A stretch of 64,000 nucleotides of DNA from Bacteroidota bacterium (GTDB lineage Bacteria > Bacteroidota > Bacteroidia > Flavobacteriales_D > Crocinitomicaceae), in the NCBI GenBank assembly GCA_024280295.1, contig JAJRQK010000029.1, positions 1 to 64,000 on the forward strand. The letters are read 5' to 3'. Below, one piece after another: positions 49,675-64,000 of the stretch. Position 1 is the first letter of the stretch. Each line of letters opens with the position of its first letter. The notes under the pieces are model-generated. The model was not told the DNA's origin, made no database searches, and worked only from the letters and a program-made list of their open reading frames with translations. A program made the translations under genes and the position numbers.

Positions 49675-52600
49675 ATGTTAAATAACATAATAAAATTCTT
49701 TTTAGATAATAAATTAGTTGCTTGGATTTTACTCCTAATGTTTGTTGTATGGGGACTTGTAACTGCTCCTTTTGATCTAGGTGGTAACTGGCTTCCTAGA
49801 GATCCTGTCGCAGTTGATGCGATTCCAGATATTGGAGAAAATCAACAAATTGTATTTACAAAATGGATGGGACGATCACCACAAGATGTGGAAGATCAAA
49901 TTACTTATCCTTTAACTTCAGCACTGCTCGGAATTCCTGGTGTGAAAAGTGTTAGAAGTAATTCCATGTTCGGATTCTCAAGTATCTACTTGATTTTCAA
50001 TGATGATGTTGAGTTTTATTGGAGTAGAAGTAGAATCCTTGAAAAATTAAATTCACTTCAAGCAAATTTACTTCCTCCTGATGTGAAACCAAGTCTTGGG
50101 CCTGATGCAACAGCACTAGGACAGATTTATTGGTACACATTGGAAGGTCGCGATAAAGATGGCAATGTAACAGGAGGTTGGGATCAACAAGAATTGCGCT
50201 CCATACAGGATTTCGATGTCAAGTATGGTCTTCAATCTGCTGCAGGTGTATCTGAAGTTGCATCTATTGGTGGATTCGTAAAAGAATACCAAGTTGATGC
50301 TGACCCAGAATTAATGAGGGTTAATAATATTTCTCTTAGCGACTTAATGAAGGCCATCAAAGAAAGTAATCTCGATATTGGTGCTCAAACGGTTGAAATT
50401 AATATGGCAGAGTACTATGTTCGTGGACTTGGCTATGTCAAATCTATTGAGGACATTGAATCTAGTGTGGTGAAAGTTGTCGACAATGTTCCACTTCGTG
50501 TGAAAGATATCGCGCGAGTTCATCTTGGGCCTGCAACTCGAAGAGGAATATTAGATAAATCTGGATCACCAGCTGTTGGTGGGGTTGTTGTGGCGAGATA
50601 TGGAGCAAATCCCGTTGAGGTACTTAATAATGTGAAAGCGCAGATTGCGCAAATTCAACCTGGTCTCCCAAGTAAGACACTCGAAGATGGAACTGTTTCA
50701 CAAGTAACTGTTGTTCCTTTTTATGATCGATCTGAATTAATTGCTGAAACACTAGGTACACTTGAAGAGGCTTTAACTTTGGAGGTCTTGATCACAATTA
50801 TTGTGGTGATCTTAATGTTGCTTCACTTGAAATCATCATTACTCGTTGGTGCATCTTTACCAGTTGCTGTGCTAATGTGTTTCATTGCAATGCGCTATTT
50901 TGGCGTAGATGCTAATATCGTAGCACTGTCTGGTATCGCAATTGCCGTTGGAACTATGGTCGATATGGGAATTGTATTGAGTGAGAGTATGCTCACCCAC
51001 ATTAAATTGGCACCTCCTGATCAACCCATGAAGCAAACGATTTATTTGGCAACAACGGACGTTGCTTCTGCTGTATTAACTGCTGTGGCAACAACTATAG
51101 TAAGTTTTTTACCTGTATTTACGATGGAAGCATCAGAGGGTAAATTATTTAGGCCGCTTGCGTTTACAAAAACATTCGCACTCTTGTCTTCTGTGCTACT
51201 TGCAATAACTGTTGTTCCTCCAATGGCAGAACAGCTATTTAGAATTAAAAAACGGGGAAATTTATCGAGCTACGTATCTCATGGTTCTCTGGCATTACTA
51301 TCGATTATTCTACTCTTCACTTCCTACTCATATATTGGTCTTTTTGGTCTTGTGATTGGTGGTGGTGGCGCAATTTCTACTTATGTTGGCGATAAAAAAT
51401 CTGAATTATGGATGACGCGATTTAATTACATTAAAAATATTTTGTATGCGTTGATCGTTGGTTGGCTGCTCGCTAAAATATGGATGCCTCTTGGTGCTTC
51501 GCGTTCAGAGTTTGCAAATTTTGCATTTATAGTTGTAATCATCGGATCATTGATCGGGTCGTTCTATGTTGTAATCCACTTCTATGAAAGAATACTGAGA
51601 TTTTTACTCCGCGTTAAGTACGCCTTCATTGGCCTAATTATTCTAATAATGATTGCGGGTTACAGCATCTTCAAAAACACAGGACAAGAATTTATGCCTG
51701 CTTTAGATGAAGGATCATTCCTACTTATGCCAACTTCAATGCCACATACTGGAATGGAGATGAACGAAGTTAATTTGAGGCTGCTTGATATGTCCGTTTC
51801 TTCCATCCCTGAGATTGAAATGGTTGTCGGAAAGGCTGGGCGAGTGGAAAGTTCTCTGGATCCTGCTCCTATGTCGATGTATGAAAATATCATCGCCTAT
51901 AAATCTGAGTATATCACAAATGAGGAAGGACATCGCGTTCGATTCAAAATGACTGATAATGGTAATTATGCTCGTGATTCTAAAGGTGAGTTAATTGAAG
52001 ATGAAGACGGGACGTTTTTTAGGCAATGGAGAAAACATATAAAATCTCCGGATGATATTTGGGAAGAAATTGTAAAAGCTACAGACTTGCCTGGAATGAC
52101 TTCTGCGCCAAAATTACAGCCTATTGAGACACGATTAGTTATGCTTCAGACGGGAATGCGTGCACCAATGGGAGTGAAGGTGAAGGGCAAAAACTTGAAA
52201 GAAATTGAAGAGTTTGGCTTGAAACTAGAGATGTTCTTGAAGGAAGTCAAAGGAGTGAAAAAGAGTGCAGTCTTCGCAGATCGAATTGTAGGGAAGCCTT
52301 ACATGATGATCGATATCAAGCGGAATGAAATTAGTAGACATGGCTTAACTATTGTTCAAGTTCAAAATCAAATTCAAGCAGCTGTTGGTGGGATGATTAT
52401 GACATCTACAGTTGAAGGACGAGAGCGATACGGTATTCGTTTACGCTATCCAAATGAATTGAGAAACGATGCGGATAAGATTAAGAAAATATTGATTGCT
52501 TCACCAAGCGGAGCACAAGTTCCCCTTGGAGATTTGGTGGAAATAAAATATGAACAAGGCCCACAGTCAATTAAGAGTGAGGATGGTTTTTTAATTGGGT

Positions 52601-53373
52601 ATGTCTTATTTGACAAAGAAGATGGGTTTGCTGAAGTGGATGTAGTCAACAATGCACAGGAATACTTAAACAAGAAGATTGCTGCTGGTATTTTAGATGT
52701 GCCTTCTGGGATCAACTATAAATTTGCAGGTAATTATGAGCAGCAAGTACGATCAAATAAACGATTAGCACTTGTTCTACCAATTTCCTTACTGTTGATT
52801 TTACTCATCCTATATTTCCAGTTTAAGTCACTTATGACTTCCTTAATGGTTTTCTCAGGAGTATTTGTAGCGTTCTCTGGTGGATTTATCATGCTGTGGC
52901 TCTATGGGCAAAGTTGGTTTATGAATTTTGATTTCTTTGGTACAAATATGCACGATTTATTCCAAATGGGAAGTATCAACCTTAGTGTCGCCGTTTGGGT
53001 TGGATTTTTAGCCTTATTTGGAATTGCTACTGATGATGGGGTACTTGTTGCTACTTATCTCAAAAGTAGTTTCAAGAAGAACCATCCAACGAGTGTGCAA
53101 GGAATCCGAGATGCTGTTGTTGAAGGTGGAAAACGTCGAGTTAAACCAGCAATGATGACAACAGCTACAACTATTCTTGCTTTGCTGCCAGTATTGACTT
53201 CAACAGGTAGGGGAGCAGACATAATGCTTCCAATGGCAATTCCATCTTTTGGTGGGATGATTATTAACGTGATTACAATGTTTACAGTGCCCGTGATGTA
53301 TTGTCTATGGAAAGAGTTAAGGTTTAAATGGAAATTTGATAAACAAATAACAATTGAGAGCCATGAAAAATAG
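49675..53373 (+). CDS. cusA: Heavy-metal efflux RND permease, CusA-like
   Basis: 1232 residues, larger than E. coli CusA (1047) because of inserts after TM6-7 (about 525-650). RND marks: RSPQDVEDQITYPLTSAL, SNSMFGFSSIYLIF, AIAVGTMVDMGIVLSESML in TM4 with Asp430 and Glu437, and AGRVESSLDPAPMSMYE. The TM4 arrangement (VDMGIVLSE) is closer to Cu/Ag CusA than to CzcA (D-D-E). It exports monovalent metal from periplasm and cytoplasm using the proton gradient, with CusC and CusB encoded next. The 3' end overlaps the TolC-like gene. Metal assignment is by motif and context. Confidence 0.88.
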   Translation: MLNNIIKFFLDNKLVAWILLLMFVVWGLVTAPFDLGGNWLPRDPVAVDAIPDIGENQQIVFTKWMGRSPQDVEDQITYPLTSALLGIPGVKSVRSNSMFGFSSIYLIFNDDVEFYWSRSRILEKLNSLQANLLPPDVKPSLGPDATALGQIYWYTLEGRDKDGNVTGGWDQQELRSIQDFDVKYGLQSAAGVSEVASIGGFVKEYQVDADPELMRVNNISLSDLMKAIKESNLDIGAQTVEINMAEYYVRGLGYVKSIEDIESSVVKVVDNVPLRVKDIARVHLGPATRRGILDKSGSPAVGGVVVARYGANPVEVLNNVKAQIAQIQPGLPSKTLEDGTVSQVTVVPFYDRSELIAETLGTLEEALTLEVLITIIVVILMLLHLKSSLLVGASLPVAVLMCFIAMRYFGVDANIVALSGIAIAVGTMVDMGIVLSESMLTHIKLAPPDQPMKQTIYLATTDVASAVLTAVATTIVSFLPVFTMEASEGKLFRPLAFTKTFALLSSVLLAITVVPPMAEQLFRIKKRGNLSSYVSHGSLALLSIILLFTSYSYIGLFGLVIGGGGAISTYVGDKKSELWMTRFNYIKNILYALIVGWLLAKIWMPLGASRSEFANFAFIVVIIGSLIGSFYVVIHFYERILRFLLRVKYAFIGLIILIMIAGYSIFKNTGQEFMPALDEGSFLLMPTSMPHTGMEMNEVNLRLLDMSVSSIPEIEMVVGKAGRVESSLDPAPMSMYENIIAYKSEYITNEEGHRVRFKMTDNGNYARDSKGELIEDEDGTFFRQWRKHIKSPDDIWEEIVKATDLPGMTSAPKLQPIETRLVMLQTGMRAPMGVKVKGKNLKEIEEFGLKLEMFLKEVKGVKKSAVFADRIVGKPYMMIDIKRNEISRHGLTIVQVQNQIQAAVGGMIMTSTVEGRERYGIRLRYPNELRNDADKIKKILIASPSGAQVPLGDLVEIKYEQGPQSIKSEDGFLIGYVLFDKEDGFAEVDVVNNAQEYLNKKIAAGILDVPSGINYKFAGNYEQQVRSNKRLALVLPISLLLILLILYFQFKSLMTSLMVFSGVFVAFSGGFIMLWLYGQSWFMNFDFFGTNMHDLFQMGSINLSVAVWVGFLALFGIATDDGVLVATYLKSSFKKNHPTSVQGIRDAVVEGGKRRVKPAMMTTATTILALLPVLTSTGRGADIMLPMAIPSFGGMIINVITMFTVPVMYCLWKELRFKWKFDKQITIESHEK

Positions 53374-54601
53374 TAGAAAATTAATACTTGTGGTCGTCTC
53401 ATTTATTTGTGGATTATCACTTAATGCACAACCGCTTGATACCCTGCTTCGGGAAGTAGTCGAGAATAACCCTGAATTGAAAGCATTGGCGCTTGAATAT
53501 GAGGCAGAATTACTTAGAATAGATCAAGTCAGAGAACTTCCGAACCCTCAATTGGGTGTTGGAATTCCTATTTCACCACCAGAAACGCGATTAGGTCCTC
53601 AGATCCTAATGGTTAGCGCGAGCCAAATGTTTCCTTGGTTTGGAACGCTGGATGCGAAGGAAGAAGTGGTGATTAGCATGTCAAAAGTGCGTTACGAGAA
53701 AATATCAGCACTGCGACTTGTTTTGTTCAATAAAGTAAAGGTTGCCTATACAAAGATTGCATTTGTCGATGCCAAAATTATCGTAATGGATAGCATCATC
53801 GATCATTTTGAAGCACTTTCGAGAATTGTAATTGCAAGAGTAGAAACAAATGCAAGTTCAGCTGCAAATGTGCTTCGAATTCAGCTTCGAATTGATGACC
53901 TCAAACAGCAAATCAAGAAAATGAATTTGGAAAAACAATCTTTATATGCTGTGATCAACGGTATTACTAATGCCAACTTTGAAAAGGTTATTGAAGCTGA
54001 TCAACTTGACACTGGACCTCTATTATTAGTAGACACCGATCAAATACGACAATCTTTACGTGCTCATTATCCTTTAATGCTTAAAATTGATCAACAAATC
54101 GAAGTTTCAAAAGGTCGAACTTTACTAAATAAAAAGATGGGAAGCCCTTCGTTGGCATTTGGTCTTGATTATGCTTTAGTAAGTAAACGCACTGATGCTT
54201 CACCAGCAGGTAATGGACGCGATATTTTTGTACCCAAAGTAATGGTTAGTATTCCAATTTATCGGAAGGGGTTTAAGGCGAGAGATAAGCAAGAATTGTT
54301 GATTCAAGATGCACTCAATTTACACAAAGATGATTTAGAGAATCGAATTATTGCGGAAATCATTACACTAGAGACGGTTTTCAATCAAGGTCAACTCGAT
54401 ATAGAGTTGGCAAAAAGTCAACTTAAAACAGCCGATCATGTCTATTCAATAATCTTAACCGAATACAGTGTGAATGGACGAAACTTTGATGATCTACTCG
54501 AACTAGAGAATTTAATGTTGACATACAAATTGCAAATGATAAGCGGAATTTTCAACGCTACAAAAGCAGTGTTGGACATTGAAAAATACACGGACTTTTA
54601 G
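53363..54601 (+). CDS. TolC-family outer membrane efflux protein, CusC-like
   Basis: The start at 53363 gives a signal peptide (MKNSRKLILVVVSFICGLSLNAQ) and overlaps cusA by 11 nt; an in-frame TTG 9 nt upstream is unlikely. About 412 residues with two OEP repeats of long amphipathic helices (TLLREVVENNPELKALALEY and LRAHYPLMLKIDQQIEVSKG) and short beta strands. The outer-membrane exit duct of the tripartite pump. The mature N-terminus has no lipobox Cys, unlike E. coli CusC. Confidence 0.88.
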   Translation: MKNSRKLILVVVSFICGLSLNAQPLDTLLREVVENNPELKALALEYEAELLRIDQVRELPNPQLGVGIPISPPETRLGPQILMVSASQMFPWFGTLDAKEEVVISMSKVRYEKISALRLVLFNKVKVAYTKIAFVDAKIIVMDSIIDHFEALSRIVIARVETNASSAANVLRIQLRIDDLKQQIKKMNLEKQSLYAVINGITNANFEKVIEADQLDTGPLLLVDTDQIRQSLRAHYPLMLKIDQQIEVSKGRTLLNKKMGSPSLAFGLDYALVSKRTDASPAGNGRDIFVPKVMVSIPIYRKGFKARDKQELLIQDALNLHKDDLENRIIAEIITLETVFNQGQLDIELAKSQLKTADHVYSIILTEYSVNGRNFDDLLELENLMLTYKLQMISGIFNATKAVLDIEKYTDF

Positions 54602-54623
54602 TTGAGTTCTAAAAATAAATAAT

Positions 54624-56372
54624 ATGAAAAAGAATATAATTTTACCAGTAATAACGGCGCTTTCAGGAGTGTTGATTGGCTATTTCGTGTTGGGTGCTTT
54701 TTCAAGTGATGAAGTCACTGGAAAGACATCTAAAAGTGAAGAAAAGGCAGAAGAAATATGGACGTGTTCTATGCATCCTCAGATTAGAAAACCTGAACCA
54801 GGTGATTGTCCAATCTGTGGAATGGACTTGATTCCAGCGAAATCAAGTACAGGTGGAGATCCATTAGTATTTGAGATGAGCGAAGATGCAGTTCGTATTG
54901 CGAACATCCAAACGACTACTGTTGTAGGAAGTAGTTCATCTAATGGTGAACTAACACTCTCTGGAAAAATGAAAGTAGATGAAACTACTTCTTCGAGTGT
55001 TGTGACCCATGTTTCGGGAAGAATTGAACGACTTTATGTAAGCTTCACCGGAGAGCGAGTTTATGCTGGTCAACGTGTAGCGAGGATGTATTCTCCCGAT
55101 CTTATTACGGCTCAAAGAGAGCTGTTGGAGGCAAAGAAAATTGAGGACTTGAATCCTAGATTACTAGAAGCAGCTAAGAACAAATTGCGGTACTGGAAGA
55201 TTTCGGATAAAGTCATCGACAAGATTATTGAGAGTGGGAAAATTCAGGAGTATTTCGACATTCACTCGCAGCATTCAGGAGTGATTTCTAGAAAAATGGT
55301 ATCAGTTGGCGATTATCTTGGTCAAGGTGGCGCACTTTTCGAACTCCAAAATTTGAATAAATTATGGGCCGTATTTGATGTTTATGAGAATGATTTGAGT
55401 GCTGTATCAGTTGGAGATGAGATCAGTTTTACAACACCATCTCTTCCTGAAAAAGTATTTAAATCAAAAGTAACATTTATTGATCCTATCATAAACGCAG
55501 GTTCGAGAACTGCAGGGGTGCGCATGGAAATGAGGAATGGAGGAAAAGAATTGAAGCCAGACATGTTCATCACTGGCACATTGAAAACGAATAGAGTCAA
55601 TTCTTCAAAATCAAGTGTTCAAGTTCCAAAATCAGCTGTTTTATGGACTGGTGAACGTTCTGTAGTCTATGTGAAATTAGAAAATATGAGCATTCCTTCT
55701 TTCGAATTTAGAGAAGTAACAATAGGGGGAAGTATAGGTGATAATTACGAAATTCTTGATGGAGTGAAAGCTGGAGATAAGGTAGTTACTAAAGGTGCTT
55801 TTGTAATAGATGCTTCCGCTCAGTTAAACAATCAGGCAAGTATGATGAACCGAAGCTTGGTTGCTAATAATATTGAAACGAAAACAAAAGAGTCAAGTTT
55901 GGATTTCAAATCATCTACTCCAAAGAAATTCCAGTATCAGTTAGATAAAGTAATGGAGTTATATCTTTCAATTAAAGATGCACTCGTTGGTGATGAGTCT
56001 CATAAAGCAATGACACAAGCTAAATCATTGCTCCTAGCACTCGATAAGGTTGATATGATGCTCGTAAAGGATGATGCTCATATATACTGGATGAAGCAGC
56101 AAGTTGAGATTAAGAAGGAAAGTGAATCTATTTCGAAGAAGATGAATATTAAAGAACAACGAAAAAGCTTTGAGTCTCTATCTGAAGCAATCATCAAAGC
56201 TATGCAAGCTTTTGGTTCTAAGTCGACCCAGCTGTATGTCCAGAATTGTCCAATGGCAGCAGATGGCAAAGGAGCTAACTGGTTAAGTAAAAGTAATGAG
56301 GTATTAAATCCATATTATGGTGAACAAATGTTAACGTGTGGTTCAGTATTGGATTCAATAAAGTCAAAATAA
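54624..56372 (+). CDS. CusB-like periplasmic adaptor with heavy-metal-binding and DUF3347 domains
   Basis: 582 residues: N-terminal anchor helix (5-27); a heavy-metal-binding domain with WTCSMHPQIRKPEPGDCPICGMDL (C48, H51, C62, C65); a barrel-sandwich/HlyD adaptor core (about 100-400, VSGRIERLYVSFTGERVYAGQR); and a C-terminal DUF3347 domain (about 430-580) with NCPMA and a Met/Cys pair near the end (MLTCGS). CusB passes Cu/Ag to CusA. Having metal-binding domains at both ends makes this a self-contained metallochaperone-adaptor, replacing CusF. It lies between the CusC and HMA genes. Confidence 0.9.
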   Translation: MKKNIILPVITALSGVLIGYFVLGAFSSDEVTGKTSKSEEKAEEIWTCSMHPQIRKPEPGDCPICGMDLIPAKSSTGGDPLVFEMSEDAVRIANIQTTTVVGSSSSNGELTLSGKMKVDETTSSSVVTHVSGRIERLYVSFTGERVYAGQRVARMYSPDLITAQRELLEAKKIEDLNPRLLEAAKNKLRYWKISDKVIDKIIESGKIQEYFDIHSQHSGVISRKMVSVGDYLGQGGALFELQNLNKLWAVFDVYENDLSAVSVGDEISFTTPSLPEKVFKSKVTFIDPIINAGSRTAGVRMEMRNGGKELKPDMFITGTLKTNRVNSSKSSVQVPKSAVLWTGERSVVYVKLENMSIPSFEFREVTIGGSIGDNYEILDGVKAGDKVVTKGAFVIDASAQLNNQASMMNRSLVANNIETKTKESSLDFKSSTPKKFQYQLDKVMELYLSIKDALVGDESHKAMTQAKSLLLALDKVDMMLVKDDAHIYWMKQQVEIKKESESISKKMNIKEQRKSFESLSEAIIKAMQAFGSKSTQLYVQNCPMAADGKGANWLSKSNEVLNPYYGEQMLTCGSVLDSIKSK

Positions 56373-58489: not shown

Positions 58490-59170
58490 TTATCTACAGA
58501 CCTTTTTAAAGTACATTTCAATCTGATCAATAAAAGCACTATCAATGATAGATGTCTTAACTGAAAATTCTTGATCTTTTACTCTTTTAACGTCAATAGT
58601 TTGATTCGCGGAGATGTATGGGCAGCTGAGAGCAGTTTCTCTGAGTGAATCTACTGTCTCATTTACTCCTGAGTGCACAGAAAAAGTATAGAGTTCTATA
58701 TTACTCTTCTTGCGGACATGTCTAATGACCGATGATCTAAGCATTGAATTTGGAATGTTAACGCGCTCACCATCATTGTTAATTACAACAGACTGTGCAA
58801 ACCCCAATGACTTTACACTACCTGCTAAGTCATTTAATGCAATCGTTTCTCCTTCTTTAACCTGTCCGCTTAATTTGATGATCACACCTGCAAAGACGTT
58901 GCTCCAAAATTTCCATCCTGTTAAGATTCCTACCAAGACAAGACTCAATGTTATCACAGCATTTACCCGTAATAACTCAATAAACAGTATTACTGAAAAA
59001 GCAATCCATACGATAAGTTGCGCTTTCATCCATCGATCTGCTAGTTTTATTCGATCGTTAATTAGTGGAATAACGTAATTATTCAAGATGTAGAATCCAA
59101 CCAATATTATTCCACCCAAGGCCACAAGTAGGAGCAAGTAATAAACATTGATATTGTTTGTGATTTCCAT
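58490..59170 (-). CDS. MscS-family mechanosensitive ion channel
   Basis: 226 residues. Three transmembrane helices (about 9-30, 45-65, 70-100) with the pore-lining TM3 (ITLSLVLVGILTGWKFW), followed by the MscS beta domain (VKEGETIALNDLAGSVKSLG, RVNIPNSMLRSSVIRH, an N-x-x-P-N-S-like strand). It is shorter than E. coli MscS (286), with a reduced C-terminal cage. Releases solutes on hypo-osmotic shock. The ATG is 3 nt past the stop of the wHTH segment of the transporter gene, so it is co-transcribed with it. Confidence 0.88.
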   Translation of the reverse strand: MEITNNINVYYLLLLVALGGIILVGFYILNNYVIPLINDRIKLADRWMKAQLIVWIAFSVILFIELLRVNAVITLSLVLVGILTGWKFWSNVFAGVIIKLSGQVKEGETIALNDLAGSVKSLGFAQSVVINNDGERVNIPNSMLRSSVIRHVRKKSNIELYTFSVHSGVNETVDSLRETALSCPYISANQTIDVKRVKDQEFSVKTSIIDSAFIDQIEMYFKKVCR

Positions 59171-59173
59171 CTG

Positions 59174-59449
59174 TTAGTTTAAAATTTTAATTTCTCTCAG
59201 CCACTGTTCAATATGTGGTCTAGCTGCTCTATCTAAAACAAAAGTCGAAGCAGATCGCTTGATCACAATTCCAGATTTCTCTAATTCTTTCAATGTTTCA
59301 AGTACCCATTCATCTCCGTTAAATAGCCTTTCAATATGTTGATTCTTGATTCTTCCATGAATAATCATCAAGTATAACAGCGTTTTCCATTTTGGATTAT
59401 CTACATCTGGAAATGATAGTGGAGTAGGGCGGTGCAATCGTAATTCGTC
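59174..59449 (-). pseudogene. Detached C-terminal winged-helix segment of the transporter-ATPase
   Basis: Directly after TAA 59450-59452 the same reading frame continues as DELRLHRPTPLSFPDVDNPKW for 91 residues to the next stop. It contains a winged-helix-like run (TLLYLMIIHGRIKNQHIE, LETLKELEKSGIVIKRSAST, FVLDRAARPHIEQWL). It has no ATG near its start; only a TTG at 59435-59437 could initiate it. It therefore looks like the last part of the upstream protein, separated by a nonsense codon, or a translationally coupled or readthrough product. Confidence 0.7.
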
Positions 59450-62400
59450 TTACCCATCTGATTCTATGCTTCTTGCCCAGATGTTAAGTGCAGTTCCGAC
59501 ATTTCCTTTTGAGCGTGAATAAATTTCACCAATGAATGAATCTGTTTTTTTAGATTCCATGCTCACAGCTTGATTCAAATAAGTTAAATCAACCACTGCT
59601 GTTTTATGACGTGCTAAAACAATTTCTTTCAGCTCAATTTTACTCAACGGTGGAACGATCACCGTAGCGATCAATTGTTTGGATAAAGCAGATGATTTTC
59701 GGATGATATCGAAACTGTGAATATTGCAAGATAGTATGAAGTAATGATTCGCCCCAAATTTCTTAATCAACTCAACAATATAATCGATAGCTTCATGTCC
59801 ATTTTCTGCTTTAATCCACCACTTCTCCAAATCATCGAAGATTATCGTTGTCCTAGTTTTAAGTTGACTTAAAATAAATTCTGCATTTCCGTTCATCCCA
59901 AATCCATTCTGGATGGCTGTGTTTACATCTTCTTTATCAAACGATTGCTGTTCAGGTGTCGAAATGTACGTTTTTGATCGTTTAAGATGTGTAGCTGAAA
60001 TACTCTCTATGAAGAATGATTTACCCGACATCGCTTCTCCTAGAACTAATATAGCACCTCCAATTCCATCATTTAAACGATCAATTCCACTTGAAACTGC
60101 ATTCAACTCCTTACTTCGATATTTGCTATCTACATTACCTAAATGACTTCCAGTGAATAATTTTTTATAGTAGAAAGGAAGAAGATCATCAACCTTATTA
60201 TTTATCTTCAACTCGTTAACGAAATGATTCGTGCGTTCAATATCATTTAGAAAATGACGGTGTTTCTCAATGAATTTTATACTATCTACATCTCGTTTAC
60301 GCTGTAGAATGAAATCATACAAACGATTGTAATTGCGTCGTACCGATTCTTTTTGCTTATCAAACCAGTTTTGTGATTTAGTCTTAATAACATGCTTGCT
60401 AATATTCGAATACGATTCAAATGAGTCGATAATCGTTCGAATGTGCAAGTTCATCAGTGTATTGTGAAGATGAATGTCCAAATCATACATAAATTGAGCT
60501 TTCATCTTTATTGTACTCACTGATGTGTCATCTAATCGAGTTTGAACTTGTAGTAAATTTTCTTGGTATTCATCACGGTTATTCTCATCGATAGGTTCGT
60601 TTAGAATATGCTTAACCAAACTTGATGAACTATACAGATCCTCGGCATTTTCTTCAAACATTTCTTCGAGATTGTCAACAGCCTCTTGGATAGGTGTTAA
60701 GTAGGTAGTGCGAATAATATAGCTTTGAATATCTGTTAATTTGGCATCAATCGTAGCGATATCATCATTTTGAACTTCGTCGAACTTATTATACGAATCA
60801 GAATTCATTAATTTTGTCACATTCGGACCGTCTTGAGCAATAGAGAGAATTTTATCCTCTTCTGATGCTAGTAGATCATGTATATCGAGGTGAATAACAC
60901 CTTCGGTTAAGAGGTCAATGGTCTTGTCAGAATAGTTCTCCAATTTATCACTTCCAATATGCTCAGTTACATGTTTCACTGAATCAATGAGTGAATTTAA
61001 GTTTGATCGCTGCGGATTAATTACCAATCGATCAAGCCTTGCTTTAATTTTTTCATTTATTGCAAAAACGGATAAACCTGCCGAGAAGAGTTTTAATCCG
61101 GATTCAAGTTGATTGTGAATGAGTCCTTGATTAGTCTTCCAAAACTCAGGGGAACTTGCAATACTTCTACTAATTTGCTTACGACCAATTCCTTTGACAA
61201 GATCCTTTTCAATTTTCAATGAATTGATAAATGATGGGCGTTCACATTCTGAAATAAGATCAATACATAATTCTCGTTCGAAACTATTTAGACTTAATTC
61301 GACAGATGTTTCAAGGTCAGCAGCACGACTCAATAATTTCGCTAAAAGAGAAGTTACGTTCATGTGGAATTCTTTAATAATCTCTGATTGATCCTCTTTC
61401 CCTTTGCTTATTTTTTCTACAAGATGTACTATACGTTCTTCAAGTCCATCAATCAATTGATTAACTAAGACATAAGATTGTACACCAAAACCTTTGAGAA
61501 CCGCGATCGTGTTTGGCTCAATCTTGTACCTAAATTGATATGATATTACTTTTTTCCAGCGTAAACTCTTTCGTTTGTTCTGAATTTTGAATGAAATTTT
61601 CTTTGGGGCAGAACTCAAGATCTGTTTTCGATCTGCGGTAAAGGATGAGAGACCTGAATTAAAACGTTTGGTCAATTCTGGAAGAGAATCCGTTCGCAAT
61701 TGAGTTGCAGAAACTTCCACCTTTGATAGATAGGATTGAAGATTCTGAACAATTTTAGAGGTGCTACTCGAATTTGTAATCGTGCCTATTAATTCGTCGA
61801 AATCCTTCTGGTAAGAATGAATGAGTTGATAATAGATAGTTGAAATGGGCCTGAATACCTCTTCACTCAAGGTGTTGCTTGACTCAGCAAGTCGCGCATT
61901 AAATTTCTTTACAGTATCATTAATTGTTTCGTATTCCGAGTTTGGAAGTGGTTTTAACTCTCTCGTTTTAATTTCAGCATTTGAATCTTTTTGCACGAAA
62001 TTTAGATCAAGTTTATTGAAATCATTAGAAGCCTTAACTAAAAGGGTAGAGCCAACGGTTTCAAACAATTGGTCAGTATTTAGAATGTACTCGGCTTGTT
62101 TATCCACTTTGACATCAGGAATTCCAATCAGAATTAAATCTGTTTTTGCGGACTGAAGCTCAATAATTCGATAAAATGATTTCTGCTCAACACCATTATT
62201 AATAATTTTGATTTCAGCATTTACCCGAAGTTTATCAGCAAGTTTTTGAATTTTTGAAGTAATAATAGTGTTATCAGCATTATTGTGATTCACGAATAAA
62301 ATTCGAATCTTAACCTTATCCCATTCACTAGATTGAGAAAGGAAACGAGCAATACTCAGCATCAGTTCAGCATTATTGCTATCCGTTTCTCGCCACCAGA

Positions 62401-64000
62401 GATCTAGCGTCTTATATTCGCCATAATGCGTTTGTAAATCGTAATCAAGATAAAGTAAATTGTAATCGAGGTGAATTAACTTCTCAGTCATTCGAGTGAA
62501 TTTTTCAGGTTCACTTGTGTTATGAGACCAATTCATCATTACTGTATTCGGTTCAATTCCAGTAAATCCGTAAGTAGCTGCAATATTTTCTATTCCTATG
62601 TATGTATCATCAACAGAGACGCGTCTGCCATAAATTCCGAGTTTATCAAGAACTTCGTCCTTAAAGGATTGTTTTGTTTTTGATGTATTAGATGAAGCAT
62701 CACCAATCGAAAGGTGGAAATCTGTTACTATTCCAGCTTGACCAGATATTGCTTTGCTGAGTTCTAATAATTTTGGGCGTTGATTCGATTCACCACTAAA
62801 GACAATCATATTTGGACTCCAAATCGATTTTGAAACCTGTTGAGCACCTAATCGTTTCAATCCTTTACTTACAATTTTCGACCAAACGCTTTCCCAGACA
62901 TCATTTGTTCCAATATCAATTTTCCGTCTTGAAAGCCAAAAGTAAAGAAGTCCAACAACTGCAAAGGCTCCAAACATAGCAATCATGTCTAATTTGAACA
63001 TTACTGCAAAACATGCAATAAATCCAATGAGTCCGATCCAACGTTTTACTTTAAAGGTAGGTTGAAAATCAGGATTTGCCCAACTCTCTAAAAAGAAGGA
63101 GATGTTTATGAATCCATAAGCTGTTAAGAAGAACATGGAAACTACGCGGGCAATGACATCTAATTCTCCAATTAATATTCCCGCTTCTGCAAACAGAAAT
63201 ACAAGAATCAATGCGTTTACAGGTTCATTACTTTTCCCTCTTCCTTTTCCAAAAATACGCGGTGTTACACGGTCAATGGACATCGCTTGAAGAATTCTCG
63301 GCCCACCTAGAATTCCTCCTAAGGCTGAAGATAGAGTTGCCCCCCAAACTCCAGCAACAACTAATGGAGCGTATGCTGCGATTTTCATCAATACATTGTA
63401 GTCTTCTTTTAGTAAATCTGAATTGACTGTGTAGGCGATAAAAATGGCAAGTCCAATGTAGACGATTAATCCAGTTCCAATTGCTAATAATGTTCCTCGT
63501 GGGATTGATCTTTTGGGATTCTTCAAATCACCAGACATGGCAATTCCAGCAGTGAAACCTGTAACGGCGGGGAAGAATATTGCAAATACAACCTCCATCG
63601 AAACGGATCCTTTCGTGGAAAACATACTTACATCTTTAGGCGCAAACTCGGAAGTTCCAAAGAAAATAGATACCAGTGAAATGATAATCGCAGCAAGAAT
63701 AAAAAACTGTGTCTTTAGTGCAAACGAAGTTGAAATCAGCGCTAACAAAGTTAATACAGCTAACCCGACACTTCCTGTTAAGCGCAAATCATTGATTGTT
63801 GTACCCCAACCAAGATAACTATTGAAGCTTTCAGCAAAACCAATAAGATAAAGTGCAATCGAGAAAGCAGTACCTATATATAAAGCAATACCGATTGCTC
63901 CTCCAATGGGAATGCCCATACTTCGAGATAGGACATAGTAAATTCCTCCTGCACCAATTTTTTTATCGGTTGCAACAGATGATACACTTAATCCTGTAGT
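59450..64000 (-). CDS. SLC12-type cation-chloride cotransporter fused to AAA-type ATPase (5' end outside window)
   Basis: More than 1516 codons; the frame is open to the right edge (TGLSVSSVATDKKIGAGGIYY precedes Met at 63919), so the start lies outside. Numbered from that Met: APC/SLC12-type transmembrane part (1-345); an SLC12-like cytosolic domain (367-600) with WSPNMIVFSGESNQRP, GIEPNTVMMNW and DLWWRETD (506) that mirror eukaryotic KCC/NKCC C-domains; a long helical, largely hydrophilic region (610-1270); a P-loop ATPase with Walker A GEAMSGKS (1294-1301) and Walker B IIFDDLEKW (about 1358-1366). It ends at TAA 59450-59452, in frame with a wHTH-like segment. Predicted K/Na-Cl cotransport regulated by ATPase activity; the regulation is inference. 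Confidence 0.85.
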   Translation of the reverse strand, partial: TTGLSVSSVATDKKIGAGGIYYVLSRSMGIPIGGAIGIALYIGTAFSIALYLIGFAESFNSYLGWGTTINDLRLTGSVGLAVLTLLALISTSFALKTQFFILAAIIISLVSIFFGTSEFAPKDVSMFSTKGSVSMEVVFAIFFPAVTGFTAGIAMSGDLKNPKRSIPRGTLLAIGTGLIVYIGLAIFIAYTVNSDLLKEDYNVLMKIAAYAPLVVAGVWGATLSSALGGILGGPRILQAMSIDRVTPRIFGKGRGKSNEPVNALILVFLFAEAGILIGELDVIARVVSMFFLTAYGFINISFFLESWANPDFQPTFKVKRWIGLIGFIACFAVMFKLDMIAMFGAFAVVGLLYFWLSRRKIDIGTNDVWESVWSKIVSKGLKRLGAQQVSKSIWSPNMIVFSGESNQRPKLLELSKAISGQAGIVTDFHLSIGDASSNTSKTKQSFKDEVLDKLGIYGRRVSVDDTYIGIENIAATYGFTGIEPNTVMMNWSHNTSEPEKFTRMTEKLIHLDYNLLYLDYDLQTHYGEYKTLDLWWRETDSNNAELMLSIARFLSQSSEWDKVKIRILFVNHNNADNTIITSKIQKLADKLRVNAEIKIINNGVEQKSFYRIIELQSAKTDLILIGIPDVKVDKQAEYILNTDQLFETVGSTLLVKASNDFNKLDLNFVQKDSNAEIKTRELKPLPNSEYETINDTVKKFNARLAESSNTLSEEVFRPISTIYYQLIHSYQKDFDELIGTITNSSSTSKIVQNLQSYLSKVEVSATQLRTDSLPELTKRFNSGLSSFTADRKQILSSAPKKISFKIQNKRKSLRWKKVISYQFRYKIEPNTIAVLKGFGVQSYVLVNQLIDGLEERIVHLVEKISKGKEDQSEIIKEFHMNVTSLLAKLLSRAADLETSVELSLNSFERELCIDLISECERPSFINSLKIEKDLVKGIGRKQISRSIASSPEFWKTNQGLIHNQLESGLKLFSAGLSVFAINEKIKARLDRLVINPQRSNLNSLIDSVKHVTEHIGSDKLENYSDKTIDLLTEGVIHLDIHDLLASEEDKILSIAQDGPNVTKLMNSDSYNKFDEVQNDDIATIDAKLTDIQSYIIRTTYLTPIQEAVDNLEEMFEENAEDLYSSSSLVKHILNEPIDENNRDEYQENLLQVQTRLDDTSVSTIKMKAQFMYDLDIHLHNTLMNLHIRTIIDSFESYSNISKHVIKTKSQNWFDKQKESVRRNYNRLYDFILQRKRDVDSIKFIEKHRHFLNDIERTNHFVNELKINNKVDDLLPFYYKKLFTGSHLGNVDSKYRSKELNAVSSGIDRLNDGIGGAILVLGEAMSGKSFFIESISATHLKRSKTYISTPEQQSFDKEDVNTAIQNGFGMNGNAEFILSQLKTRTTIIFDDLEKWWIKAENGHEAIDYIVELIKKFGANHYFILSCNIHSFDIIRKSSALSKQLIATVIVPPLSKIELKEIVLARHKTAVVDLTYLNQAVSMESKKTDSFIGEIYSRSKGNVGTALNIWARSIESDG

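Follow-up and report, generated by a model that had tools for sequence, protein, structure and literature searches.

A conserved pairing of a predicted NLR/Orc-like ATPase with an MscS-like protein, linked to exchangeable ion transporters, in Bacteroidota

Introduction

Eukaryotic members of the SLC12 family of cation-chloride cotransporters are controlled by separate kinases, and, to our knowledge, little is known of the physiology of their bacterial representatives. MscS, in its textbook form, is gated by membrane tension, and what is known of the NLR-like ATPases comes mainly from work on immunity and cell death. Here we describe a locus in which relatives of all three are brought together: in a stretch of 64,000 nucleotides (nt) from a Bacteroidota bacterium (contig JAJRQK010000029.1, positions 1 to 64,000; this whole stretch is hereafter the window), a minus-strand gene codes for an SLC12 transporter fused to a long tail with a P-loop ATPase and is followed by a gene for an MscS-like protein. 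Across related loci the ATPase-bearing tail and the MscS-like gene form a conserved pair, and the transporter joined to them differs between lineages. With modest confidence, we lean toward seeing in this system a module for ion and cell-volume control, with a fixed core in which a winged-helix ATPase of the STAND/Orc-like type is paired with an MscS-like channel protein.

Each of the components has counterparts among described systems. The SLC12 part shares with NKCC1 and KCC the permease, the cytosolic C-domain, most residues of the sites for Na+, K+ and Cl-, and the gate pair R307/E389, but it differs from them in being followed by 864 further residues in the window protein (about 930–1020 in intact relatives), which include the ATPase. 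The modeled tail has a nucleotide-binding domain (NBD), a lid and a winged helix in the same order as the STAND, NLR and Orc1/Cdc6 ATPases; unlike these, it has an N-terminal helical stalk, in many cases preceded by an ion transporter, and an MscS neighbor, and it lacks a C-terminal repeat sensor such as that of the STAND NTPases. The MscS-like protein has the beta domain and fold of the MscS channels, but its third transmembrane helix (TM3) is not rich in Gly and Ala and it is encoded with an ATPase partner; E. coli MscS is also the longer protein. The concept of an ATP/ADP-dependent cytosolic regulator of an ion channel is shared with TrkH–TrkA and KefC, and trkH and trkA genes adjoin one form of the present system; however, the regulator in those systems is a TrkA_N/RCK-type domain, and no Pfam match to a TrkA_N-type or RCK/KTN domain was found in the tails scanned. 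TrkA is reported to shut TrkH when ADP is bound and to open it with ATP (PMC6987127), and Kef is an example of nucleotide- or ligand-domain switching of ion transport (PMC10224563). In the open-access full-text literature, judged by titles and abstract openings, we found no description of SLC12 or MscS with such an ATPase. The parts come from known superfamilies and, on the genomic evidence at hand, none of the known systems considered would appear to encompass the whole.

Results and Discussion

A constant ATPase–MscS pair with different transporters

We built a profile from the alignment of the ATPase and winged helix (the tail profile), which matched at least 74 of 395 genomes sampled from the phylum and at least 53 of 299 sampled from the order; the phylum, order and own-family counts include the window genome and are lower bounds, as no more than 5–8 first-look candidates were scored per genome. 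In another family, f35, 48 of 92 genomes are matched. Ninety loci were fetched, namely the window, loci from 10 genomes of tail-bearing relatives, 45 of the 76 other places in the phylum sample and 34 further places in the order sample, the phylum and order loci having been picked before their neighbors were seen.

These 90 loci display three distinct N-terminal situations. The tail is fused to an SLC12 transporter in 45, in all of which the SLC12 C-domain is matched by a purpose-built hidden Markov model (HMM), to a cation/proton antiporter in six, and to no transporter in 36. Three were left unclassed by the script: two over-extended open reading frames (ORFs; L132 and L138) and L129, whose product has 11 predicted membrane helices and no Pfam transporter match, with TrkA and TrkH genes upstream. 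The antiporter fusions are about 1500 amino acids (aa) long; that of L123 matches PF00999 at 7.2e-19 and, weakly, TIGR00932 (CPA2; 36 bits vs. a cut-off of 238), and matches of 6e-60 or better connect the other five to it, L127 itself having no PF00999 match. All six are followed downstream by trkH and trkA (PF02386 and PF02254, respectively, in L123; recognized by similarity in the other five). Upstream of them lies a 414–422-aa ORF, which looked by eye like another antiporter; it has no Pfam match in L123, and we do not claim it as one. At the other extreme, the tails of genus g89 are reduced to ATPase and winged helix only (298–413 aa from the first start codon, about 450–465 from stop to stop), and MscS still adjoins them (L115, L117, L178). 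SLC12 fusions were also found in records named Chlorobiota, Calditrichota, Marinimicrobia, Gemmatimonadetes and SAR324, all of them metagenome bins, for which transfer or misbinning is possible.

The common thread connecting these architectures is the MscS-like gene, an immediate same-strand neighbor of the tail in 86 of the 90 loci by script and in 88 after inspection. By class, the script found it with all 45 SLC12 fusions, all six antiporter fusions, 34 of the 36 transporter-less tails (28 downstream, six upstream) and L129; the two added by inspection are L132 and L138, where an MscS ORF at the upstream end is overlapped by the over-extended tail ORF. Given that the window genome (3.46 Mb) has four PF00924 genes in all, a chance adjacency is unlikely. 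The juxtaposition seen by the earlier note, which was made from the window sequence alone, proves to be kept across genomes in the form of a constant pair of ATPase/winged-helix tail and MscS-like gene. In L134 and L140, a 749-aa tail is followed by a 185–187-aa ORF and then by an antiporter gene (PF00999 in L134).

A second, named set consists of the best 80 of 558 confirmed loci; it was found via permease patterns of the full-length alignment, is biased to SLC12 carriers and overlaps partly with the genomes of the 90-locus set. An MscS neighbor is present in 42 of its 48 fused loci with room by script and in 46 after inspection. The four cases added by inspection are L204, whose MscS gene follows a split, L217, where an over-extended start precedes it, and L232 and L247, in which it lies at -67 nt and 181 nt, respectively. 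Isolates with both the fused form and MscS include Labilibaculum filiforme, Plebeiobacterium sediminum and Mangrovivirga halotolerans. The 42 include two with fragments only, both from Fulvivirga, and one in which the MscS-like gene lies in two ORFs (L241). The same set has 22 loci with short SLC12 genes without a tail (up to 757 aa; that of L218 is broken into two ORFs), and an MscS match was found beside none of the 20 with more than 300 nt of room. Dropped from these counts were five ORFs cut by contig ends, loci without room (the fused L208 and L261 and the short L192 and L199), and the long ORFs L225, L234 and L236, which lack a tail-profile match and are possibly broken fusions. From these neighborhoods, the ATPase and MscS look like the core of the system and the transporter like its exchangeable element.

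The history of the tail was approached with a tree of 85 of the 139 tails (quick search, midpoint root, and Shimodaira–Hasegawa-like approximate likelihood-ratio, SH-aLRT, support only). The SLC12 fusions fall on one side (support 88, not starred) and the other architectures on the other, save L042 and L043. The tails of these two SLC12-less loci measure 964 aa and 633 aa, respectively, the latter cut by a contig end, and both loci keep MscS. Because they nest among the SLC12 fusions (group SH-aLRT 96), their lineage probably lost the transporter and kept MscS. The six antiporter fusions form one group (99), with L129 outside it. Profile alignments of the helical region, the probabilities of which can be inflated by helical sequence, stand at 99.1% for the SLC12 form and transporter-less tails, 98.6% for the SLC12 and antiporter forms, 98.6% for transporter-less tails and the antiporter form, and 99.3% for transporter-less tails and the upstream-MscS class; alignments of the latter class with the SLC12 (84.8%) and antiporter (73.4%) forms are weaker.

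Architecture of the fused protein

The fused ORF occupies positions 59450–64000 of the minus strand in the window and runs past the window end to a start at contig position 64159, 159 nt outside. Its 1569-aa product has an SLC12 permease, an SLC12 C-domain, a long helical region and a P-loop ATPase (coordinates, those of the window unless another locus is named, are in Table 1). The earlier note had proposed that one protein joins an SLC12 permease and its canonical C-domain to some 880 further residues, comprising a helical region, a P-loop ATPase with the motifs GEAMSGKS and IIFDDLEKW and a winged-helix-like end, and that an MscS gene lies 3 nt downstream. The transporter assignment is borne out by the TIGR00930, PF00324 and NKCC1 matches, both motifs were located in the open frame, the residue count is near the 864 found there, and the MscS-like ORF indeed begins 3 nt past the stop codon (59174–59176) of the winged-helix frame. 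The earlier note held that the lack of a C-domain match, or an ATPase separately encoded in all relatives, would speak against it; the C-domain is matched and the ATPase is part of the same chain in relatives. What it overlooked is the in-frame TAA that, in the window, cuts the 91 codons of the winged helix off the open chain.

Against TIGR00930 the window protein scores 1.1e-113 and 381 bits, which does not reach the model cut-off of 953 bits, with the best stretch being residues 251–661 on model positions 374–819; the permease matches PF00324 at 2.3e-50. A sequence search of the PDB returned NKCC1 (SLC12A2), then KCC and NCC, as its best solved relatives, and 32 distinct SLC12 sequences match at 1e-20 or better, with the next APC protein at only 8.7e-7. 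By sequence, the permease is closer to the cation-chloride cotransporters than to other APC transporters. The NKCC1 residues of the Na+ site, A610/S613/S614 (+L297), the K+ site, Y383/P496/T499, the Cl- site, G500/Y686, and the gate pair, R307/E389, were taken from PMC7889885. Their equivalents in the window protein are A274/S277/S278 (+L18), Y104/P197/T200, G201/Y348 and R28/E110, respectively, and all are unchanged in the nine aligned sequences, window included. As most of the NKCC1 site residues are present and invariant, the SLC12 part is predicted to catalyze Na+-K+-Cl- cotransport.

In the tail, Walker A reads GxxxxGK[ST] in 45 of 47 aligned relatives, and 41 of the 47 have Asp as the fifth residue of Walker B. 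PF00004 (AAA) passes its cut-off in the relative L037 (1.9e-4); the window tail matches AAA_16 at 0.0055, below the cut-off, and matches to nSTAND1, 3 and 5, seen in some members only, also fall below it. Except for such partial ATPase matches, models in Pfam, NCBIfam and PADLOC leave the tails of the scanned members uncovered. A sequence search of solved structures with the ATPase/winged-helix part of L042 gave one chance-level match (0.37), and a comparison with viral structures gave mostly generic AAA matches.

We modeled the tail of L185 with AlphaFold, together with 46 other tails (mean predicted local distance difference test score, pLDDT, 87.0; predicted template modeling score, pTM, 0.57). 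The helical region is formed of long helices, with pLDDT mostly 70–97 beyond a disordered start, after which come, as read by eye, an NBD, a helical lid and a winged helix; the latter is the C-terminus, and no repeat sensor is present in the model. Foldseek comparisons of this model with the PDB recovered the plant NLR WRR4A (3.9e-6), the archaeal PABY2304 (1.1e-5) and then Orc1/Cdc6 and RuvB, the top matches spanning 3.9e-6 to 3.5e-5. Their length (about 320–410 columns at the top, the output being without a query range) suggests that they span the ATPase and winged helix. The model thereby indicates an ATPase of NLR/STAND or Orc type, with Orc and RuvB fitting about as well as STAND.

The stop codon sets the window copy apart from its relatives. 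In the nearest relative (L185; same genus, 82% identity) and seven more, the ATPase and winged helix belong to one open chain of 1633–1692 aa, and all 44 fetched SLC12 fusions besides that of the window are single ORFs of 1630–1705 aa. Among 77 phylum and 53 order rows and the family census, a stop inside the match to the tail profile occurs in the window's row alone. Since synonymous divergence (dS) is saturated, only nonsynonymous divergence (dN) is usable around the stop; between the window and its nearest relative it amounts to 0.049 for the permease, 0.070 for the C-domain, 0.198 for the helical part, 0.158 for the ATPase and 0.226 after the stop. The last value is similar to the one for the helical part, and the piece beyond the stop has thus evolved as protein, at least until recently. 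The TAA may have arisen by recent mutation or in the assembly, or it may be a split that is tolerated. A second tail broken near its end is found in L204 (12518–12964), where 1509-aa and 148-aa ORFs meet with one base in common with the stop codon. In the same-genus genome G021 (contigs 62 and 224), an N-terminal match of 63 residues (83% identity) and a separate match of 112 positions to the end of the tail profile are seen; this copy is perhaps decayed or fragmented.

The MscS-like partner

The MscS-like protein of the window, modeled by AlphaFold with 41 relatives (pLDDT 90.6), has N-terminal helices, of which the third is kinked, followed by a beta domain and an alpha/beta domain. Its best Foldseek match is MscS 6pwo (3.2e-11, TM-score 0.40), followed by further MscS-superfamily channels. 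When eight partners were scanned with PF00924, five were above the cut-off, L034 and L133 were below it, and L134 had no match. In the two Fulvivirga loci (L240 and L257), the neighbor just downstream of the fused gene is a 111-aa ORF with no evident membrane helix, which matches only positions 154–233 and 159–231, respectively, of the 234-position MscS-partner profile (7.8e-7 and 4.4e-5). As these loci keep only the last third of the partner, the remnant would most simply be read as the part of the MscS-like protein to which the ATPase binds, namely its cytosolic domain.

Proposed function and alternative explanations

If the system is a module for ion and cell-volume control, the NBD and winged helix would act as an ATP/ADP switch like that of the NLR and Orc-type ATPases. 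The ATPase would then be linked to the membrane proteins by its long helical stalk and would touch the MscS-like protein at its cytosolic alpha/beta domain. Uptake (Na+, K+ and Cl- by SLC12) and efflux (by MscS) could then be made mutually exclusive by energy state, ionic strength or turgor. The architecture, the conserved ATPase–MscS pair and the exchange of transporters are observed; the gating, the signal and the ions are inferred. A more specific version is tentative: the NLR-like (STAND/Orc-type) ATPase might be a plug-in ion-flux controller that binds the cytosolic domain of the MscS ring, opens or closes it according to its ATP/ADP state and is fused to the uptake or exchange system of the lineage (an NKCC-like SLC12 or a cation/proton antiporter, with Trk nearby), with one molecule governing both import and emergency efflux. 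The role in ion or osmotic homeostasis suggested by the earlier note is plausible; its view of the ATPase as the regulatory tail of SLC12 holds insofar as both are in one chain, but the ATPase is not merely an SLC12 tail, SLC12 being one of several attachments.

Several observations weigh against a control module of this kind. Within the window's own family the tail occurs only sporadically (at least 18 of 240 genomes, its own included), and in the window the winged helix lies beyond a stop codon. The ORF in the MscS place of L134 and L140 has no MscS match, the fused L210 and L237 have no MscS neighbor, and neither do the long SLC12 ORFs of L234 and L236, which have room for one. The pore helix TM3 of E. 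coli MscS has a Gly/Ala pattern; that of the partners of the SLC12 form is without it (42 rows, read by eye), which makes channel activity of the MscS-like protein uncertain, and in Fulvivirga the channel part is gone and so is dispensable there. Walker A is disrupted in L229 (GCLGSGYS); L187, L038 and L041 are missing its final Ser/Thr, and L130 and L132 carry Arg in place of its Lys. Therefore, hydrolysis is not universal. The Foldseek superpositions of the tail are poor (TM-score by query 0.13–0.22, by target mostly 0.2–0.5). Finally, N298, W300, M303, I501 and L502 of NKCC1 are replaced by Thr, Leu, Ile, Phe and Thr, respectively, in the window protein, N298 and W300 being backbone contacts according to PMC7889885.

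Among the alternatives, an ATPase of assembly, scaffolding or turnover, whose AAA-like domain would position the transporter and the MscS-like protein in the membrane or pull them out of it, with only an indirect effect on ions, is improbable. It would accommodate the AAA-like P-loop and long helical region, nucleotide motifs that are not universal, the retention of the MscS cytosolic domain alone in Fulvivirga, and the presence of ClpX, ClpC and proteasome ATPases in the Foldseek list; however, the folds at the top of that list are NLR, PABY2304, Orc1/Cdc6 and RuvB rather than unfoldases.

We hold it to be just as improbable that the system is a suicide or anti-phage switch, in which the NLR-like ATPase opens an MscS pore upon infection to kill or arrest the cell. 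While a plant NLR is the top Foldseek match and MscS could serve as the pore, the tail is fused to ion transporters, is without a repeat-type sensor at its C-terminus and is present in about half of the f35 genomes (48/92), where seven of the eight loci shown have the same divergent kinase-like neighbor (labeled by eye), suggestive of a fixed location on the chromosome. Searches against PADLOC models of known anti-phage systems yielded no convincing match, only weak and local ones (best 1.9e-4 to a mad8 model; SngB 4.7e-4).

A slightly poorer candidate is a membrane-anchored gene regulator, with the winged helix binding DNA and reporting the ionic or osmotic state to transcription and MscS being a co-regulated neighbor. 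Indeed, the winged-helix frame of the window has a weak HxlR-type helix-turn-helix match (0.027, below the cut-off), and the DNA-acting Orc1/Cdc6 and RuvB are among the closest folds. Yet, across 47 relatives the winged helix has a mean net charge of +1.6 (range -4 to +7) and its recognition-helix segment -0.2, and the top fold match is an NLR, in which the winged helix is regulatory. As a basic recognition helix is lacking, we set the DNA-binding reading aside; by sequence, a regulatory winged helix, as in the NLR and Orc-type ATPases, is more likely.

Least probable of all is a decorative fusion, with the tail a passive SLC12 extension and the MscS adjacency a mere operon inheritance: vertical inheritance would hold neighbors together in close relatives and the window copy has a stop in its tail, but the adjacency is kept across architectures and in either gene order (MscS upstream in eight loci, six by script and two by inspection), survives transporter exchange and is not seen with the tail-less short SLC12 genes.

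Gene layout and neighboring genes

Table 1. Features of the system in the window
Feature	Position	Strand	Basis
SLC12 (cation-chloride cotransporter) permease, residues 54–456 of 1569	62792..64000	-	PF00324, TIGR00930, NKCC1 best PDB match, purpose-built HMM 2–456
Permease residues 1–53	past window end, contig up to 64159	-	whole permease = residues 1–456
SLC12 cytosolic C-domain, residues 457–705	62045..62791	-	TIGR00930 match to residue 661; NKCC1/KCC alignments to 550–694
Linker and long helical region, residues 706–1297	60269..62044	-	AlphaFold model of 82%-identical relative L185
P-loop ATPase (NBD and lid), residues 1298–1569	59453..60268	-	AAA_16 0.0055 (below cut-off); Foldseek to NLR, PABY2304, Orc1/Cdc6, RuvB
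Walker A GEAMSGKS	60017..60040	-	motif in window protein
Walker B IIFDDLEKW	59819..59845	-	motif in window protein
TAA stop, in frame, separating the ATPase from the winged helix	59450..59452	-	reading frame
Winged-helix frame, 91 codons and stop, in frame beyond TAA; possible TTG start at 59437	59174..59449	-	same chain in relatives; helix/strand order in L185 model (by eye)
MscS-like protein (226 aa) with N-terminal helices followed by beta and alpha/beta domains	58490..59170	-	PF00924 2.7e-9; AlphaFold; Foldseek

Beside the system, on the plus strand of the window (49675–56372), lies a metal-efflux-type cluster with genes for an AcrB-family pump (PF00873, 1232 aa) and a CusB/HlyD-type protein with a heavy-metal-binding domain (PF16576, PF19335), and with a 415-aa ORF between the two. 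The gene beyond the MscS-like gene is similar in L107, L109, L110, L112, L116, L118 and L120 (family f35, with L120 from another family), and its L107 copy (549 aa) matches peptidase family M49 (PF03571, 4.6e-18). Divergent from the tail gene in L106 is a gene for an N-acetylmuramoyl-L-alanine amidase (PF01520; 4040–5350); other f35 loci have ORFs of like length and start at this place, where they are known from position and length.

Implications

A module for ion and cell-volume control, if this is what these genes encode, would be a conserved device tying SLC12, MscS and an NLR-like ATPase to one another, and thus a new coupling of ion uptake and release. The lineages offer a natural experiment in this regard, in that the transporter has been swapped between them while the ATPase–channel pair has stayed constant. 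The coordination of solute uptake and efflux in bacteria would thereby become testable in cultured strains.

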